Source: an uncultured Carboxylicivirga sp.
Lineage (GTDB): Bacteria; Bacteroidota; Bacteroidia; Bacteroidales; Marinilabiliaceae
Reading direction: 5' to 3'
Length of the DNA stretch: 54,254 nucleotides
Assembly: GCA_947491945.1 (NCBI GenBank)
Contig: CANLLN010000030.1
Coordinates: forward strand, 1 to 54,254
In this document: positions 32,140 through 53,057 of the stretch, piece after piece
Layout: each line of letters opens with the position of its first letter
Numbering within the stretch: position 1 is the stretch's first letter
Translations under genes and position numbers: made by a program
Notes under the pieces: model-generated
Told to the model about the DNA's origin: nothing
Seen by the model: the letters and a program-made list of their open reading frames with translations, nothing else
Databases searched by the model: none

Positions 32140-32410
32140 TACCGCAGATAAGGAATGTGAAACAATTCAGTTGTTTATGCATCCGTGAACATCTGCGTTA
32201 ATCCGCGGACAAAGAGAAAAAAAGAATAGTATCCACAGATTAACACAGATGATAAATAGCTGCCCTATTTATTTCTAATCCGTGAAAATCTGCGCCAATC
32301 TGCGGACAAAAAAAGAAAGGGATCCATAGATATGCACAGATTTCCACAGATGAAAATAGCTTTGCTATTTATTTTTAATCCGTGTGAATCAGTGTTTATC
32401 TGCGGACAAC
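32140..32410. repeat. Palindromic repeat block 1 (three units)
   Basis: Units at 32140-32213, 32231-32310 and 32321-32410. Each has a left arm built on CACAGATTaaCACAGAT, an apical mini-hairpin, and a right arm ATCCGTGnnnATCTGCGnnAATC ending TGCGGACAAA, which is nearly the reverse complement of the left arm. Apical stems differ between units: aacaa/ttgtt in the first, aaatag/ctattt types in the others. Confidence 0.85.
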
Positions 32411-32436
32411 GAATATAATAACTGATGTAGGTGGAA

Positions 32437-32814
32437 ATGACACTCTTACCTGATAAAGAAAAGACCTATAAGATTATAGGATGTTGCATGGAGGTGCATA
32501 CCGTGTTAGGAGGCGGTATGTTAGAAGCTATTTATCAGGAAGCTTTAGGTATTGAGTTGGAATTAAAGGGAATTTCATTTCAACGAGAAAAAGAACTAAG
32601 AGTTAATTATAAGGGAGTTCGACTTAATAAAACGTATAAAGCAGACTACATTTGTTATGATGAGATTATTTTAGAGTTAAAAGCTGTTTCAGAATTAACA
32701 GACGAACACTTGGCACAAGTGATAAATTATTTAAAGATAACAGGGAAGAAACTGGCACTCCTGGTTAATTTTGGAAATGAGTCATTGGAATATAAGCGAG
32801 TGATTAACTCATGA
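32437..32814 (+). CDS. GxxExxY family protein
   Basis: A 125-aa protein (the frame also allows a GTG at 32431) with the family motif GMLEAIY and the segment KADYICYDEIILELKA. The Asp followed by E-x-K resembles the PD-(D/E)xK nuclease core. The function of the family is not established. The gene is embedded in the palindromic repeats: three units end 26 bp before it, and its TGA stop is immediately followed by a lone right arm. Base composition is more AT-rich than the wec genes. Nuclease activity or action on the repeats is a hypothesis. Confidence 0.85.
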   Translation: MTLLPDKEKTYKIIGCCMEVHTVLGGGMLEAIYQEALGIELELKGISFQREKELRVNYKGVRLNKTYKADYICYDEIILELKAVSELTDEHLAQVINYLKITGKKLALLVNFGNESLEYKRVINS

Positions 32815-32849
32815 TATCTGCGTTAATCCGTGCTAATCTGCGGACAAAG
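32815..32849. repeat. Solitary right arm of the palindromic repeat
   Basis: tatctgcgttaatccgtg followed by ctaatctgcggacaaa: a right arm without left arm or apical stem, starting on the base after the GxxExxY stop codon. Confidence 0.8.
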
Positions 32850-32862
32850 AGGAAAAAATGGC

Positions 32863-33350
32863 GATCCACAGATTAACACAGATTCTCACAGATGATAAAT
32901 AGCTGCGCTATTTATTTTTATGATCCGTGTTAATCAGCGTGCATTAGCGGACAAAGAAATAGGAAAAAGTGATCCACAGATTACACAGATTACACAGATT
33001 CTCACAGATGATAAATAGCTCTGCTATTTATTTTTATGATCCGTGTTAATCAACGTGCATCTGCGGACAAAGAGAGAAGGAATAGGATTTACAGATTTAC
33101 GCAGAAAAATAGCCTTGCTGTTTTATTTTATCGTGAAACAAAACGTTTGTTTACATCTGCGTTAATCCGTGCTAATCTGCGGACAAAAAAATAAGCCACA
33201 GATCACACAGATGATAAATAGCTATGCTATTTATTTTTTAATCCGCGCCAATCTGCGGACAGATAAATAAACCACAGATTGCACAGATTATTATAGAAAG
33301 AACTAGTTTTGCAACTTGTTTTTTTAATCCGTGTCAATTCGTGGACAAAG
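32863..33350. repeat. Palindromic repeat block 2 (five units)
   Basis: Units at 32863-32955, 32971-33071, 33086-33187, 33195-33263 and 33271-33350. Apical stems: aaatagc/gctattt in the first two and fourth, aaatagc/gctgttt in the third (G-T pairs), and aactag/cttgtt in the last. The third also holds an extra aaacaaa/tttgttt hairpin. The last unit ends 46 bp before the wzz start codon. Confidence 0.85.
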
Positions 33351-33396
33351 AGAAATTATAAACTATTCATCTGAGGGAAATATAACAGTACACTTA

Positions 33397-34545: not shown

Positions 34546-34652
34546 TCTGCAGATTTAACAGTACCTGTCCCGCAATGGCGGGATTCACGCAGAAAAATAT
34601 TGCTGGACTATTTTTTAAATCTGTGATAATCTGTGCAAATCCGCGGACAAAG
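34546..34652. repeat. Palindromic repeat unit with a nested small palindrome
   Basis: Same family as the units at 32-33 kb, between wzz and wecB. Its left arm is split by about 21 bp (34562-34582) holding tcccgc-aatg-gcggga, an independent GC-rich hairpin. The right arm is aatctgtgataatctgtgca followed by aatccgcggacaaag. Confidence 0.75.
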
Positions 34653-46347: not shown

Positions 46348-47561
46348 ATGCTAAATAAGATACTTTTTAAGGATAGAGGAGCTTCCCTGATAATGGGAAT
46401 GCTCCTTTTGTTTTTTATAAGTGATGCTTTAAATGTCATACTGTCGCACACCAACTATTTTGCTACTTTTCCCATAAGCGCTCACATTAAGCTCTCTGCC
46501 ATTACCAAGGGAATGGCTATGGTATGCATTGTGTCTTACTTTTTGTGGTATAAGAAATATCTCCCACATATAGGGCTTACATTACTTTTGGTTAGTTTTT
46601 TTGCTTTGGTAGGCATTAACTTCAGTGATAATACACACCTTTTTACTTGGTTAATTCGCCTCTTTAAGCTGGCCTTGCCTTTTGTCCTGTACTACTTTAT
46701 AAAGGATCGATCTATTCCACAACGCTCTTATGTCTTTAAGCTATTCGCAGGCTTAATCCTTCTTCAATGCATAACGGTGATAGCAGCCTTTATATTCGAT
46801 TGGCCGGTATTTTTAACTTATGGAAGTCACCGTTTCGGTTATTCAGGTTTTTTAATAGCTCAAAACGAAGCCAACTTTTTTTATGTGATTGCTTTTGTTT
46901 TTTTATGGGCACAGTATAATAACACAGGACATAAGCTCTATGTGTTTTCACTGGTAACGCTACTACTGGCTTCTGCTTTGTTGGGGGCGAAGGCCATTTT
47001 ATCTTATATGCCTCCGCGGCTATTTACTTTGTTTTTACTCAAAAGCGAATTAATAAATGGCGTTTGTTAGGTGGAGTGCTCTTGGCTGGAGGACTGTTAA
47101 TGTATGGGCTGTATACAATGGGTGTTTTTGACTTTTATCGTACTTTTTTACAAGAGGCCGATTTGCTAACGATGATTACTTCGTTTAGAAACCTTTTAAT
47201 ACTGGAGCGCTTACCCGCCGTATTTGAGAATTGGAGTTGGTATAATTATTTGTTTGGCGGTGTTAATCCGGCTACGAGCTTCGTGGAGATGGATATGATA
47301 GATATGTTTACCTATGGTGGGATTGTTGGTTCCGGTATTTATTACTGGGTTCTATTTAAGACGCTGTTTAAGTTTAAAATGAATAATTATTTGGGTTGGT
47401 TCTTGGTGAGTCAGTATTTTATTATTGGGGGTTTGGCAGGTCATGTATTTGCCAGTGGTATTAATGCAATTTATTTGGCTTTAACGTGCTATTATTTGCA
47501 GGGTGCAGCGACCAGGGAACAAGATTCAGTTATCTGGAAGCAGGTGAGAGGTGGGATATGA
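46348..47561 (+). pseudogene. O-antigen polymerase/ligase family gene split by a frameshift
   Basis: Two adjoining frames (46348-47070, 240 aa; 47064-47561, 165 aa) make one multi-pass protein of about 404 aa. The first frame is Wzy/WaaL-like up to SALLGAKAIL (46970-47000). Thereafter the sequence makes sense in another frame (YASAAIYFVFTQKRINKWR, ~47005-47065), continuing into LLGGVLLAGGLLMYG. Loss of one base near 47000-47008 explains this. RFGYSGFLIAQNEANFFY is the typical periplasmic-loop motif. The last residues QVRGGI are encoded by GTGAG repeat DNA. Confidence 0.8.
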
Positions 47562-47892
47562 GTGGTGAGATGTGAGTAATGAGACTGATGGACAATCTTT
47601 ACAATCCACTCAATCTTATTTCAATCACTTTAATCTCCTCAATCTTTCAGGTTCACGCAAAGAACGCAAAGTGTTTTAGCGCCAAGACCGCAAAGAATTT
47701 GGATTGTGTGGACACGAGAATGTCGAAGTACTTTATTCTTTATCAATCTCCTCGATCTTTAATTTCATGCAAAGGACGTAAGGTCGTAGAGAAAAGAATG
47801 AAGCGAAGAGAGGTGAGTTTTCTCCGGTCTTCGATCGCCTCAAACAGCGAAGCTGTTCATCCGTGAACATCTGCGCCAATCAGCGGACAAAA
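47562..47892. repeat. Repeat cluster A
   Basis: In order: GTGAG-rich stretch (47543-47582, overlapping the gene end), TCAATCT-type array (~47590-47648), CGCAAAG block (~47651-47745: cgcaaagaacgcaaagtg, then agcgccaagaccgcaaag), an ATGCAAAGGACG block (~47766-47815), and a palindrome half-unit (47842-47892) with apical aacagc/gctgtt. Open frames across this stretch (47579-47866, 47863-48069) are only translated repeats. Confidence 0.8.
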
Positions 47893-48056
47893 GAAATAGC
47901 AGATAGAAGGACACAGATTGAGTTGATTAGCACATCATGTATTTTCTGTGCATACCAGTTTCCCGATTTCTCAATTTTCCAATTCATAAGTTTTCCAATA
48001 AACTCATTAACTGATAAACTATTCAACTTTATAAAGAATTTCCGTATCTTAGCCTT

Positions 48057-48518
48057 ATGCGTTTTATAAGCATCGTCATATTATTCGTGTTGAGTATGTC
48101 GATTTCTTTATCACAAGAGAAAGAGGTGGTGATTCCGTATACTCAGGCCGACCGTGATCGAATGGTCCGGGTGGAAACACGTCTGGATAATGTCGAGAAG
48201 AGTCTGGATGATTTACGTGTTGAAGTAAGAGAGAGCCAGGCAGCACTGCGTAAAGAAATGCAGGAAGGTCAGGCGGAGCTGCGTAATATGATCGCGGGTT
48301 TGATTTATTCCATCTTTGGCTTGATCGGTGTGTTGATTGCGCTGGTTATTTGGGATCGGCGTACGGCTATTAAGCCGGTATCATCTGCCTTGGATATGGA
48401 GAAGCAACGTGTCAGTGAAGAGATTCGTTTTCGTAAACGGGTTGTGAAGGCCCTGAAGGAAGCTGCCGAGAAGGATAATAACATACGAGAAGCCTTGAAG
48501 CATGCGGGGTTGTTGTAG
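48057..48518 (+). CDS. Duplicated small membrane/coiled-coil protein, copy 1
   Basis: A 153-aa protein with a signal peptide or N-terminal TM (MRFISIVILFVLSMSISLSQ), a heptad-like coiled coil (~30-85: RVETRLDNVEKSLDDLRVEV), one TM (IAGLIYSIFGLIGVLIALVI) and a charged cytoplasmic-type tail. I recall similar orphan proteins with the IPYTQADRDR start and WDRRTA after the TM in Bacteroidota; the function is unknown. Copy 2, 1003 bp downstream, is almost identical. Confidence 0.75.
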   Translation: MRFISIVILFVLSMSISLSQEKEVVIPYTQADRDRMVRVETRLDNVEKSLDDLRVEVRESQAALRKEMQEGQAELRNMIAGLIYSIFGLIGVLIALVIWDRRTAIKPVSSALDMEKQRVSEEIRFRKRVVKALKEAAEKDNNIREALKHAGLL

Positions 48519-48891
48519 TAGTTTATTGAGAGGTGAGAGGTGAACAGTGAGTAATGAGACTGATTTGAAATCTAGTAAATCTTTACAATCCACTCAATCT
48601 CATCAATCTTATTTCAATCATTTCAATCTCCTCAATCTTTCGGTTCACGCAAAGAGCGCAAAGTATTTTAGCGCCAAGAACGCAAAGAAATTGGATCGTG
48701 GAGACACGAGAATGGCGAAGTCCTTTATTCTTTATCAATCTTATTTCAATCTCCTCGATCTTTAATTTCATGCAAAGGACGTAAGGTCGTAGAGAAAAGA
48801 ATGAAGCGAAGAGAGGTGAGAGGTGAGTTTTCAATCCCCTCAAACAGCGAAGCTGCTCATCTGTGAACATCTGCGTCAATCTGCGGACAAA
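48519..48891. repeat. Repeat cluster B
   Basis: Same modules in the same order as cluster A: GTGAG stretch (~48530-48560), TCAATCT array (~48585-48645), CGCAAAG block (~48648-48745), ATGCAAAGGACG block (~48770-48825) and a palindrome half-unit (48841-48891). Confidence 0.8.
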
Positions 48892-49059
48892 AGAAGTAGG
48901 AAGGGGATGAGACAGATTTACATAGCTTGTCTTTTCAGTTAACAATTAACCAATTCCCCAGTTCCTTAATTTATCAGTTCATCGTCTCACCGCTTCACCA
49001 ATAAACTTATCAACGGATAAACTATTCAACTTTATACAGAATTTCCGTACCTTAGCCTT

Positions 49060-49521
49060 ATGCGTTTTATAAGCATCGTCATATTATTCGTGTTGAGTAT
49101 GTCGATTTCTTTTTCACAAGAGAAAGAGGTGGTGATTCCGTATACTCAGGCCGACCGTGATCGAATGGTTCGGGTGGAAACACGTCTGGATAATGTCGAG
49201 AAGAGTCTGGATGATTTACGTGTTGAAGTAAGAGAGGGCCAGGCAGCACTGCGTAAAGAAATGCAGGAAGGTCAGGCGGAGCTGCGTAATATGATCGCGG
49301 GTTTGATTTATTCCATCTTTGGCTTGATCGGTGTGTTGATTGCGCTGGTTATTTGGGATCGGCGTACGGCTATTAAGCCGGTATCATCTGCCTTGGATAT
49401 GGAGAAGCAACGTGTCAGTGAAGAGATTCGTTTTCGTAAACGGGTTGTGAAGGCCCTGAAGGAAGCTGCCGAGAAGGATAATAATATACGAGAAGCCTTG
49501 AAGCATGCGGGGTTGTTGTAG
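49060..49521 (+). CDS. Duplicated small membrane/coiled-coil protein, copy 2
   Basis: A 153-aa copy differing from copy 1 at two residues (L19 to F; S60 to G, in EVREGQAAL), with near-identical DNA. Same architecture: signal segment, coiled coil, single TM, charged tail. The few differences show recent duplication or gene conversion. Both copies start only a few bases after a shared -7-like box (tatcttag / taccttag), so transcripts may be nearly leaderless. Confidence 0.75.
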   Translation: MRFISIVILFVLSMSISFSQEKEVVIPYTQADRDRMVRVETRLDNVEKSLDDLRVEVREGQAALRKEMQEGQAELRNMIAGLIYSIFGLIGVLIALVIWDRRTAIKPVSSALDMEKQRVSEEIRFRKRVVKALKEAAEKDNNIREALKHAGLL

Positions 49522-49834
49522 TAGTTTATTGAGAGGTGAGAGGTGAACAGTGAGTAAAGAGGCTGATGGACAATCTTGTCAATCTTTACAATCCACTCAA
49601 TTTCACTTCAATCTTATTTCAATCACTTTAATCTCCGATCAATCCCTTGGTTCACGCAAAGAACGCAAAGTATTTTAGCGCTAAGGGCGCAAAGAATTTG
49701 GATCGTGGAGACACGAGAATGGCGAAGTCCTTTATTCTTTATCAACCCCCTCAATCTTTTCAATCTCATCAATCTTTCTTCAATCCTTTCAATCTCAGTC
49801 AATCTACCTCAATACCCATCATCTCATCAAGCAA
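49522..49834. repeat. Repeat cluster C, unit lacking its gene
   Basis: GTGAG stretch (49531-49560), TCAATCT array (~49575-49640), CGCAAAG block (~49650-49745), then a second long TCAATCT array (~49750-49830) with mostly 9-11-bp periodicity. The ATGCAAAGGACG block and palindrome half-unit of clusters A and B are missing. Confidence 0.75.
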
Positions 49835-49930: not shown

Positions 49931-51046
49931 ATGTCTAAAGTAGCACTCATCACCGGTATCACCGGTCAGGACGGCGCGTATCTTGCCGAATTTTTATTGA
50001 AAAAAGGATACGTGGTTCATGGTATCAAACGTCGTTCATCTTTGTTTAACACCGATCGTATCGACCATTTGTATCAGGATCCGCATGTGGAGAACCGTAA
50101 CCTGATTTTGCACTATGGTGACCTGACCGATTCCATGAACCTGACCCGTATCATTCAGGAGGTGCAGCCCGATGAAATTTATAACCTGGCGGCCATGAGC
50201 CATGTGAAGGTAAGTTTTGACACGCCAGAATACACGGCCAATGCGGATGGTCTTGGTACTTTGCGTATCCTTGAAGCTATTCGTTTGTTGGGCCTAAGTG
50301 AGAAGACGCGCGTGTATCAGGCTTCTACATCCGAGTTGTATGGTTTAGTGCAGGAAGTACCACAAAAAGAGACCACCCCTTTCTACCCACGATCACCATA
50401 CGCGGTGGCCAAGATGTACGCGTATTGGATTACCGTGAACTATCGTGAGGCTTATAACATGTTTGCCTGCAACGGTATTTTATTTAACCACGAGAGTCCG
50501 CTGCGTGGGGAGACCTTTGTTACGCGTAAGATTACCCGTGCGGTATCGAAGATTGCTTTGGGTATGCAGGATTGCCTGTACCTGGGTAACATGGATGCGA
50601 AACGTGACTGGGGCCATGCCAAGGATTATATCAAAGCCATGTGGTTAATTCTGCAGCAGGATCAGGCTGAGGACTATGTGATTGCCACTGGTGTAACTAC
50701 GACTGTTCGCGACTTTGTGAAGATGGCCTTTGGCGAAGTAGGCATTGAGTTGGAATTTAAAGGTAAGGATGAAGCCGAAGTGGGCGTGGTTAAAGCCTGC
50801 TCTAATCCTGATTATCAGGTAGCTGTTGGTACCGAAGTGGTGAAAGTAGACCCGCGTTACTATCGTCCAACGGAGGTAGAGTTGCTAATTGGTGATCCAA
50901 CTAAATCAAAAGAAAAACTAGGCTGGGAGCCTGAGTACGATCTGGCTGGCCTGGTAAAAGACATGATGGAATCGGATGTAAAACTGATGAAGAAAGATCG
51001 TTACCTGAAAGAAGGTGGGTACGAGGTTCTCAACTATTTCGAATAA
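49931..51046 (+). CDS. gmd: GDP-mannose 4,6-dehydratase
   Basis: Converts GDP-mannose to GDP-4-keto-6-deoxymannose, 371 aa, short-chain dehydrogenase fold with bound NADP. Motifs: [15 protein letters not shown] (Rossmann), ASTSELYG (catalytic Ser/Thr and Glu), [12 protein letters not shown] (Tyr-x3-Lys), [17 protein letters not shown]. It feeds fcl, the next true biosynthetic gene. Confidence 0.97.
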
Positions 51047-51065
51047 CATAGAGAAGATAAAACAA

Positions 51066-51500
51066 GAGAAGTGAGCGGTGAGAAATGAGTGTGATTATGG
51101 GACAAATAAATAGTTTCAGAGATTTAATTGTTTATCAGAAAGCGTATCATATTTCTATGAAGATTTTTGTTCTGACAAAAACATTTCCCAAGGAAGAAAG
51201 ATATTCACTAGTCGATCAGGTTCGACGCTCATCCCGCTCTATTTGTGCTAATTTGTCGGAAGCTTGGGCAAAAAGAAGATATGAGAAAGTCTTCATAAAT
51301 AGGTTAACTGATTGTTTAGGTGAAGAGTTTGAGACTGAAACTTGGTTGAAGTATTCTGTCGATTGTAAATACATTACGGAAGAAGACTATGTCATATTAA
51401 TGAATGAATATGAAGAAGTAAGAAAAATGCTTATTTCAATGATTAAGAGCCCGGGAAAATTCTGCAAGTAAGATGTCTCATCTCTCAATTCTCACCTCTC
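51066..51500. mobile_element. Candidate repeat-flanked four-helix-bundle element, copy 1
   Basis: GTGAG-rich arm at 51066-51089 and its inverted counterpart at 51477-51500 match at 19 of 24 positions when one is reverse-complemented. They enclose the four-helix-bundle gene exactly. It sits between gmd and fcl, which are otherwise a compact pair in many genomes. That it is mobile is a hypothesis. Confidence 0.45.
51097..51471 (+). CDS. Four-helix-bundle protein (23S rRNA-IVP / S23 family)
   Basis: A 124-aa all-helical protein. INSFRDLIVYQKAYHISMKI, YSLVDQVRRSSRSICANLSE and AWAKRRYEKVFINRLTDCLG are the classic blocks of the family found in 23S rRNA intervening sequences and, in a related branch, as Avd of diversity-generating retroelements. 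Members form pentamers that bind nucleic acid; a general function is not known. The ATG at 51097 was chosen by comparison with the second copy (MAQINSFRDL). Confidence 0.9.
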   Translation: MGQINSFRDLIVYQKAYHISMKIFVLTKTFPKEERYSLVDQVRRSSRSICANLSEAWAKRRYEKVFINRLTDCLGEEFETETWLKYSVDCKYITEEDYVILMNEYEEVRKMLISMIKSPGKFCK

Positions 51501-51519
51501 AAATCTATAATCATCAATT

Positions 51520-52617: not shown

Positions 52618-53057
52618 AGGTGAGCGTTGAGCGTTGAGAATTGAGTAATCTGGGAAATTATGGCACAGATAAATAGTTTCAGAGATTTAATAGTATGTCA
52701 GAAGGCTTATGCAGTTTCGATGGAAATTTTTCTGTTGACGAAGCGTTTTCCTAAAGAAGAAAGGTATTCCTTAGTAGATCAAATTCGACGTTCATCTAGA
52801 TCAATATGTGCTAATTTGGCTGAAGCCTGGGCTAAAAGAAGATATGAAAAAGTATTTATAAACAAGCTAACGGACTGCCTCGGCTAGGAATTTGAAACGG
52901 AGACGTGGTTAAATTACTCCTTGAACTGTGGGTATATAAAAGACGAAGATTATAAAGAATTACTAATGAACTATGAAGAAGTCAGAAAGATGCTGATCTC
53001 AATGCTCAGGCACTCTGAGAAATTTTGCATTTAGGTTTTCTCATTTCTCGAATTACT
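52618..53057. mobile_element. Candidate repeat-flanked four-helix-bundle element, copy 2
   Basis: GTGAG-type repeats (52619-52645: aggtgagcgttgagcgttga) precede the broken four-helix-bundle gene, and the inverted form (tctcatttctcgaatta, 53038-53054) follows it, reaching the manC start codon. Same arrangement as the copy between gmd and fcl. Confidence 0.4.
52660..53034 (+). pseudogene. Four-helix-bundle protein, broken by an in-frame stop
   Basis: Colinear with the copy at 51097 over its full 124 codons (MAQINSFRDLIVCQKAYAVS to SMLRHSEKFCI), but a TAG at 52885-52887 replaces a Glu codon in LGEEFETETW. The rest of the frame stays open to a TAG at 53032-53034. At DNA level the copies are well diverged, mostly at third positions, so they did not arise by a very recent duplication. 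Confidence 0.85.

Follow-up and report, generated by a model that had tools for sequence, protein, structure and literature searches.

The hairpin array at 32140-33352 of the window (the whole stretch of 54,254 nucleotides analyzed here) is probably a local expansion of a single-gene element, in which a PD-(D/E)XK protein recognizes inverted arms made of short tandem words. We infer that such elements move because junctions occur both filled and empty, the catalytic residues are kept across phyla, and the words are specific to families. The cluster apparently belongs to a widespread, undescribed kind of small inserted DNA element, and the change of the word with the protein suggests that each protein reads the arms flanking its gene and moves them. 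No account of these elements was found in the literature outside subscription papers, at the level of titles and the opening parts of abstracts, or in the accessible parts of PMC5524665 and PMC10910872. No function for the GxxExxY family, to which the protein belongs, was found in the literature so covered; the name occurs there as that of a gene beside a reverse transcriptase and as an entry in a virus gene list.

A palindromic array around a single gene

As the original prediction had stated, the array consists of eight full palindromic units and a half unit, all in a single orientation, around its only gene; the half unit is a right half. The units, about 65-100 nt long, are built of repeated words, which are CACAGAT in the left arm and ATCTGCG or ATCCGTG in the right arm. 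A covariance model (A2) was built from six of them, namely U2 (32233-32306; 87.6 bits; apical stem AAATAG/CTATTT), U3 (32323-32406; 88.6 bits), U5 (32865-32951; 97.8 bits), U6 (32973-33067; 97.8 bits; four left words), U8 (33195-33259; 72.5 bits), and U9 (33271-33345; 55.1 bits). The model found these six again and, more weakly, the units outside its build, which are U7 (33088-33183; 36.9 bits), carrying both apical stem types, and U1 (32142-32209; 25.8 bits in R1), with a stem of the GAAACAA/TTGTTT type. The right half unit immediately 3' of the stop codon of the gene (32816-32847) is weak by the model (13.1 bits, E 0.68). A further unit, overlooked in the predicted list, was detected at 34569-34647 in the interval between a Wzz-domain gene and a UDP-GlcNAc 2-epimerase gene (model match at 34578-34647, 28.7 bits, E 7.8e-5, with pattern matches). 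The two half units that had been listed at 47.8 and 48.8 kb reach only E 0.22 (47847-47887; AACAGC/GCTGTT stem; 15.0 bits) and E 0.07 (48847-48887, in the second copy of a duplication at 47.5-49.5 kb; 17.0 bits). All units and half units are assigned to the minus strand. The duplication itself (47540-49530, 1 kb) contains nearly identical genes at 48057-48518 and 49060-49521, which sit in arrays of GGTGAGA, CAATCTC, and CGCAAAGA words beside the half hairpin units and have no Pfam match and a weak holin-like match in PHROG.

The full units fold end to end, as had been proposed, better than shuffled sequence, least so U1 and U7. On the minus strand, none of 200 shuffles matched six of the eight units, while two matched U7 and 19 matched U1; the corresponding plus-strand numbers were nine for U1, two for U5, and zero for U2, U3, U6, U7, U8, and U9. 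Fold z values were -8.1 for U2 on the minus strand, -5.6 for U3, and -6.9 for U6, and those of U1 were -1.4 (minus) and -1.9 (plus). The right half unit alone folds no better than chance (58 of 200 shuffles were as good). Six of the eight units are lower in energy on the minus strand, strongly so U2 (-35.1 versus -19.7 kcal/mol on the plus strand), U5, U6, and U8, because the pairing of CACAGAT with ATCTGCG gives G.U on the minus strand and A.C on the plus strand; the reverse holds for U1 and U7.

The apical stems had been thought to covary, but none of 24 base pairs is altered on both sides in the six aligned units. The stem differences are swapped modules of the GAAATAGC/GCTATTTC and GAAACAAC/GTTGTTTC types, not compensatory substitutions, a reading that was rejected, and in relatives both types co-occur in single units. 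When the whole genome (216 contigs, 4.9 Mb) was scanned with the model, all 10 matches with E <= 0.001 among the 150 scored of 1640 candidates lay within the array, so that the proposed covariance search recovered the array units and no genome-wide spread. A looser word-pair pattern matched 34 times in the genome, against zero for its backwards control; 23 of these matches are in the contig of the window and 11 elsewhere, including a different repeat at C3:132 kb. At that place (L087/L088, G000:C3:132155-132612), GTCCGCAGATT words are mixed with CCACGGGTT...AACCCGTGG and CCCCGAAAGGGG hairpins in several tandem copies. Rfam gave no match in the window.

The GxxExxY protein

The gene in the array (32431-32814, plus strand) encodes a nuclease-like protein of 127 aa, which matches TIGR04256 with E 5.6e-43 and 146 bits (curated cut-off 35) and PF13366 (PDDEXK_3) with E 3.2e-40 and 137.6 bits (cut-off 22). 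It was correctly foreseen to be the sole gene inside the array, and it is also the single GxxExxY match in this genome. The D...ExK pattern that had been noted in it was upheld by an alignment of 32 proteins, the window's and 31 relatives, in which D72, E82, and K84 are invariant, as are G27, G29, E32, Y35, E42, N99, and N113; in the wider GxxExxY set, N99 varies with the class of the arm word. An AF2 model of the protein (pLDDT 92.4) matches PD-(D/E)XK structures, with Cas4 (4ic1, E 6.9e-5) and lambda exonuclease (3slp, E 3e-4) as the best fold matches. T7 endonuclease I cuts branched DNA, and its profile match to GxxExxY is non-significant (E 0.046). From the triad and the predicted fold with its Cas4 and lambda exonuclease matches, the protein is likely to be a nuclease.

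Inverted arms at GxxExxY loci

Across many phyla, inverted arms of tandem CRCNRA-type words enclose or adjoin GxxExxY genes. At 37 loci of named genomes, inverted arms were found in the flanks with the words CACAGATT, CACGAATT, CACGGAA, and CGCGAAAG, and further samples added CACAGAG and CGCAAAG. The arms were scored by the local complementarity of the 150 nt on either side of the gene, and a score of at least 26 was taken to mean strong arms. Such scores were reached by 26 of 37 loci in set A (36 named loci and the window), 21 of 30 in set B (the top-scoring sites among 198 genomes of the phylum), and 19 of 25 in set C (relatives), compared with 7/242, 0/20, and 2/14 of the other ORFs in the same loci. 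In the held-out set D, 22 of the 39 scored loci did so; of control ORFs, nine of 281 did. The held-out loci share genomes in part with the earlier samples, since they were taken from the 198 genomes behind set B and the 99 behind the four-helix-bundle (4HB) set. Left out before counting were L038 (a fragment, set A), L163 (the window again) and L169-L172 (set C), L075 and L076 (4HB fragments), and L370 and L374 (gmd-fcl).

Over 132 loci, a gene's own flanks are complementary at this threshold in 89 cases, against 6.8 expected when right flanks are swapped between loci, and the summed arm score is 4183 against 2367 +/- 50 in 10,000 permutations. This own-flank excess is covariation at the level of the whole arm. 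The other 43 of the 132 loci are without strong arms. In the 89 arm pairs, which had been picked for high score, 1591 of 1978 non-core columns match. G.U-type transitions number 101 for the sense transcript and 102 for the antisense one; there is thus no strand preference among the wobble pairs and no sign of selection acting on the transcript of either strand, and selection on a transcript fold was rejected. The array of the window, unlike this wider arm set, favors the minus strand.

Of 88 arm-bearing GxxExxY loci, 62 have the gene inside a single hairpin, with no palindrome in either flank, and 26 have it among further palindromes; the gene of the window is not placed in a simple single hairpin and sits among units. 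In sets A-C, the gene is co-directional with both neighbors at 52 of 60 scorable loci and opposed to both at one, and among other ORFs of those loci the figures are 123 and eight of 156.

Inverted arms also enclose an unrelated protein family. A 4HB element (51046-51519, plus strand) with GGTGAGA-word arms and an arm score of 26 lies between gmd and fcl in the window, and its gene (51085-51471) encodes a 23S_rRNA_IVP protein (PF05635). A second 4HB gene (23S_rRNA_IVP/TIGR02436) at 52693-53013 carries an in-frame stop. TIGR02436 has eight matches in this genome, and four of the six scored have arms, with other words. Among 4HB loci, 18/36 of the first and 12/20 of the held-out ones reach an arm score of at least 26; inverted word arms thus enclose members of two families that are unrelated to each other, and the words differ between the two. 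Because 4HB elements have the same layout without the nuclease, a nuclease is not required for such arms.

The arm word follows the protein

The arms of GxxExxY loci are inverted arms of tandem 9-10-nt words with the core CRCNRA. Flank autocorrelation is raised at 9-10 nt (0.312 and 0.309; controls 0.287 and 0.268), and that of 4HB flanks is raised at 7 nt (0.349; control 0.271). Nearest-neighbor classification by 4-mers did not convincingly separate GxxExxY from 4HB arms (balanced accuracy 0.65, null maximum 0.69), and therefore a double word, CRCNRA N2-4 CRCNRA on either strand, was used instead. It was picked after inspection of sets A-C, in which it occurs at 30/37, 28/30, and 17/25 loci, and of 36 4HB loci, and it was fixed before the held-out test. 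There, it was found at 33 of 40 GxxExxY loci compared with 26 of 281 control ORFs (p 3.6e-22) and none of 20 4HB loci (p 2e-10), the first 36 4HB loci having also given none. The backwards word occurs at nine of the 40 held-out GxxExxY loci and at five of the 281 controls.

The seventh and last base of the word, T, G, or A, defines a word class, by which 100 of 132 loci were labeled; 24 of the others are without double words, and eight are without a 70% majority. The word class follows the tree of the 132 GxxExxY proteins (treekit 'quick', mixture off), on which the last base changes seven times, compared with a mean of 36.5 and a minimum of 29 in 500 shuffles. Within the one-phylum sets B and D alone the signal is small, with four changes over 55 labels (48 G, seven T) against a shuffled mean of 6.7 and minimum of 5. 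Positions 2 and 5 track the tree more weakly (11 versus 24.0 and 21 versus 32.0), and position 4 hardly does (11 versus 14.8). At residue 13 of the protein, Y or F goes with T-class words, including T-class loci nested among G-class relatives (L044, L233, L269, L270, and L051); Y is found at nine G-class loci as well (L067 and L260 among them), and the link is a lead only.

The 5-mer similarity of the near flanks grows with protein identity among pairs below 60% identity (rho 0.18, null maximum 0.10), and that of flanks 250-400 nt away does not track it (0.05, null maximum 0.12). In 4HB loci, flank similarity does not track the protein (0.143, null maximum 0.26). Since arms that are merely dragged along should lose the near-flank signal at 40-50% protein identity, the GxxExxY protein would appear, from these sequence comparisons, to recognize its own arms. 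Plain co-descent of the arms with the gene could account in part for the co-inheritance of the word. The original idea that GxxExxY proteins recognize the hairpins fits with this word-phylogeny relation and with an arm-gene association that extends far beyond the present genome.

Filled, empty, and decayed junctions

The gene downstream of one tested junction is one that we take, from its sequence, to be scpB. Among eight genomes of one genus, this junction is filled by arm, gene, and arm in four (G054, G100, G026, and G163), lacks them in three, with 11-18 nt between the neighbors, and holds a decayed copy in one. The arms are the exact ends of the extra DNA here: the element starts with ACCACAGAGG directly after the upstream stop codon, and the complementary arm ends it before scpB. 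The filled gaps of 435-528 nt contain the GxxExxY gene and its arms and no space for another gene of usual size. In G038, both outer arm ends are kept and the gene has decayed to a fragment, so the gene can decay with the outer arm ends remaining, as seen in this one genome. Inspection by eye showed no target-site duplication at scpB, where the empty and filled genomes have diverged.

In the genus of the window, the junction between the export gene and the Wzz gene, here called wza-wzc, was compared in 13 genomes. It holds the array with the gene in five (G000, G205, G201, G209, and G206), the array alone in one (G207), and other words in one (G208, 211 bp), and it is short (13-57 bp) in six (G203, G199, G198, G200, G202, and G204); G210 gave no match. 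In G214 (L186, 2138-2835), a pair of NTase_sub_bind (HEPN-like) and nucleotidyltransferase genes occupies wza-wzc, where others carry the GxxExxY array, and adjoins AAGGCTGAGG-type word repeats. This HEPN/MNT pair was considered by eye as a similar element and rejected because its flanks are not complementary (score 14).

For the gmd-fcl junction, 22 of 24 fetched loci were read, with words assigned by eye, and the arms lie near the ends of the extra DNA. The stop and start codons share one nucleotide in G199, G204, G200, and the second copies of G198 and G211. A 4HB element is present in G000 (the window), G207, G208, G206, and G201, and a 23S_rRNA_IVP gene with a low arm score (12) in G224. 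GxxExxY elements occupy the same site with CGCAAAG-type words in G203 and G202 and with GAATT words in G205 and G209, the version in G209 having an in-frame stop; the remaining loci have shorter or other spacers. Within a single genus and at a single site, the two GxxExxY types thus each carry a word of their own.

Occurrence of words and gene

A GxxExxY match is present in 101 of the 198 sampled genomes of the phylum. Triple words number 377 in these and 179 in the 97 genomes without the gene, against 73 and 73 for the backwards control. The correlation between unit number and gene presence, proposed earlier as a check, was thus found in weak form (Mann-Whitney p 0.013; rho 0.20, p 0.004), and at least five triple words occur in 18 of 101 genomes with the gene versus nine of 97 without it (p 0.10). 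Units do not depend strictly on the gene, as word arrays are also found in genomes without a GxxExxY match, such as G158 (34 triple words) and G183 (13). In six stretches fetched from G158, tblastn found neither a GxxExxY nor a 4HB homologue. The one read most closely, L323 (G158:C9:76800-80200), contains about ten repeats of ~131 bp in tandem; each has a half-arm of three words and, by eye, no right arm.

Forty genomes were scanned with the model of the window, 120 candidates being scored in each. The 42 matches fall in 10 genomes, and 30 of them are no more than 1.5 kb from a GxxExxY gene, as the predicted association of units with these genes would have it, but 26 of the 30 represent the orthologous junction. 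At sites non-orthologous to that of the window, four of 12 matches, as counted from the same 42-match set, are that close to the gene, and the remaining four of the 42 make up the gene-less array of G207. GxxExxY is present in all 10 genomes with matches; of 30 genomes that carry the gene, 20 give none, as is expected of a word-specific model.

Discussion

The PD-(D/E)XK protein may bind the words and act on the folded arms, and this action would move or copy the element, with junctions of co-directional genes as the main targets. The fold most likely matters as DNA, in a cruciform or a single-stranded hairpin, because the wobble pairs favor neither strand. Gene-less units with compact apical stems might then be non-autonomous derivatives, multiplied beside the gene via tandem duplication or short-range copying. 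A broader proposal, which we put forward tentatively and hold to be possible rather than probable, is that GxxExxY elements make up a large class, not yet described, of minimal elements resembling transposons. A single PD-(D/E)XK protein would read the tandem words of the inverted arms around its gene and would move the folded arm DNA into operon junctions. Protein and word would co-evolve as a recognition code, with the last base T, G, or A according to subfamily, and 4HB proteins would run a parallel class with 7-nt words, competing for the same junctions.

An alternative at the level of RNA is a passenger like the intervening sequences (IVSs) of 23S rRNA, whose arms fold in the operon transcript and are excised or processed by RNase III, with the protein binding RNA and any mobility proceeding via RNA. 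The layout is that of the Coxiella IVS, in which, according to the accessible part of PMC4990558, a small ORF that may undergo reductive evolution lies inside inverted ends and is excised by RNase III, and 4HB genes, which are of the IVS protein family, occupy the same gmd-fcl junction as GxxExxY genes. The orientation of the gene matches that of its neighbors in 52 of 60 cases, but other ORFs in these loci are mostly co-directional too. Moreover, sense and antisense wobble are equal, six of the eight units in the window fold better when read antisense to the gene, and Rfam has no match, and we regard the RNA passenger as unlikely. It is also quite unlikely that the words are operator sites (iterons) through which GxxExxY autoregulates its transcription, with an incidental inverted layout and no mobility. 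Direct repeats at 9-10 nt, near a helical turn, do flank the gene, and the word does follow the protein; however, complementarity runs through the spacers (1591 of 1978 non-core columns, in arms chosen for high score), arms stand on both sides and form the exact ends of the extra DNA at scpB, and gene-less compact hairpins exist.

The arms could, in principle, be kept complementary by template switching during replication (quasipalindrome correction) together with slippage, without any recognition, the gene being a neutral rider. Tandem words and local arrays might be taken as typical slippage products, the wobble classes are balanced, and word arrays occur without the gene. We nevertheless consider this highly improbable because the core is conserved across phyla and tied to one protein family and is absent from all 56 4HB loci tested though 30 of these have arms, and because the word class is in step with the protein tree; these features call for a selective or recognizing agent.

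Read as a single-gene element whose protein recognizes its arms, the array appears to combine the layout of the 23S rRNA IVS with the logic of REP/RAYT systems, but the tested defining features of both are absent. As in an IVS with an S23/4HB ORF, one small ORF lies between inverted ends. GxxExxY elements, however, are found at junctions of protein genes, not in the 23S rRNA gene (Rfam, as noted, has no match in the window), their PD-(D/E)XK protein is unrelated to S23/4HB, although the element at 51.1 kb does have a 4HB protein, and their arms are tandem words without RNA-strand bias. The accessible part of PMC3733652 describes REP/RAYT systems (REPtrons) and TIRtrons as palindromic units grouped about a gene whose product presumably processes them, and such clustering about a single gene is shared. 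The paper also gives an unpaired GTAG or CGTC tag at one end as a mark of REP units. In contrast, no Y1 tyrosine transposase is present among the direct neighbors, the array gene being PDDEXK_3 and its neighbors export, Wzz, and epimerase genes, and the units of about 65-100 nt have repeated words. The genome-wide spread implied by the original comparison with REP sequences did not hold, all 10 model matches (150 of 1640 candidates scored) lying in one 1.2-kb array.

MITEs and insertion sequences resemble these elements in that inverted ends delimit extra DNA, as in the four filled and three empty genomes at scpB, and in having derivatives with a decayed gene, as in G038. They differ in that the present elements have no known transposase, no target-site duplication seen, and arms of iterated words that change with the protein. 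With T7 endonuclease I and other PD-(D/E)XK nucleases, the protein shares the PD-(D/E)XK core, but the weak T7 profile match is non-significant, and Cas4 and lambda exonuclease are the best fold matches.

The link to the arms provides a candidate substrate for a family matched in about half of the sampled genomes of the phylum (101/198), and with it a widespread type of intergenic repeat can be seen as belonging to small genetic elements. The word code, should it hold, would amount to a naturally occurring set of proteins paired with the DNA (or RNA) that they recognize and would explain small interposed genes in conserved operons.

Searches with the window protein (tblastn) found no GxxExxY match in 50,697 phage records and matches in eight of 72,556 plasmid records. 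Two of the eight plasmid loci reach an arm score of 26 and two have double words, and the locus on a Bacteroides finegoldii plasmid (L339) has near-perfect arms. In Sphingomonas parapaucimobilis (L342, NZ_CP155749.1), GxxExxY lies between fabD and fabG of the fatty-acid operon and is preceded by CGCGAAGG-type words.
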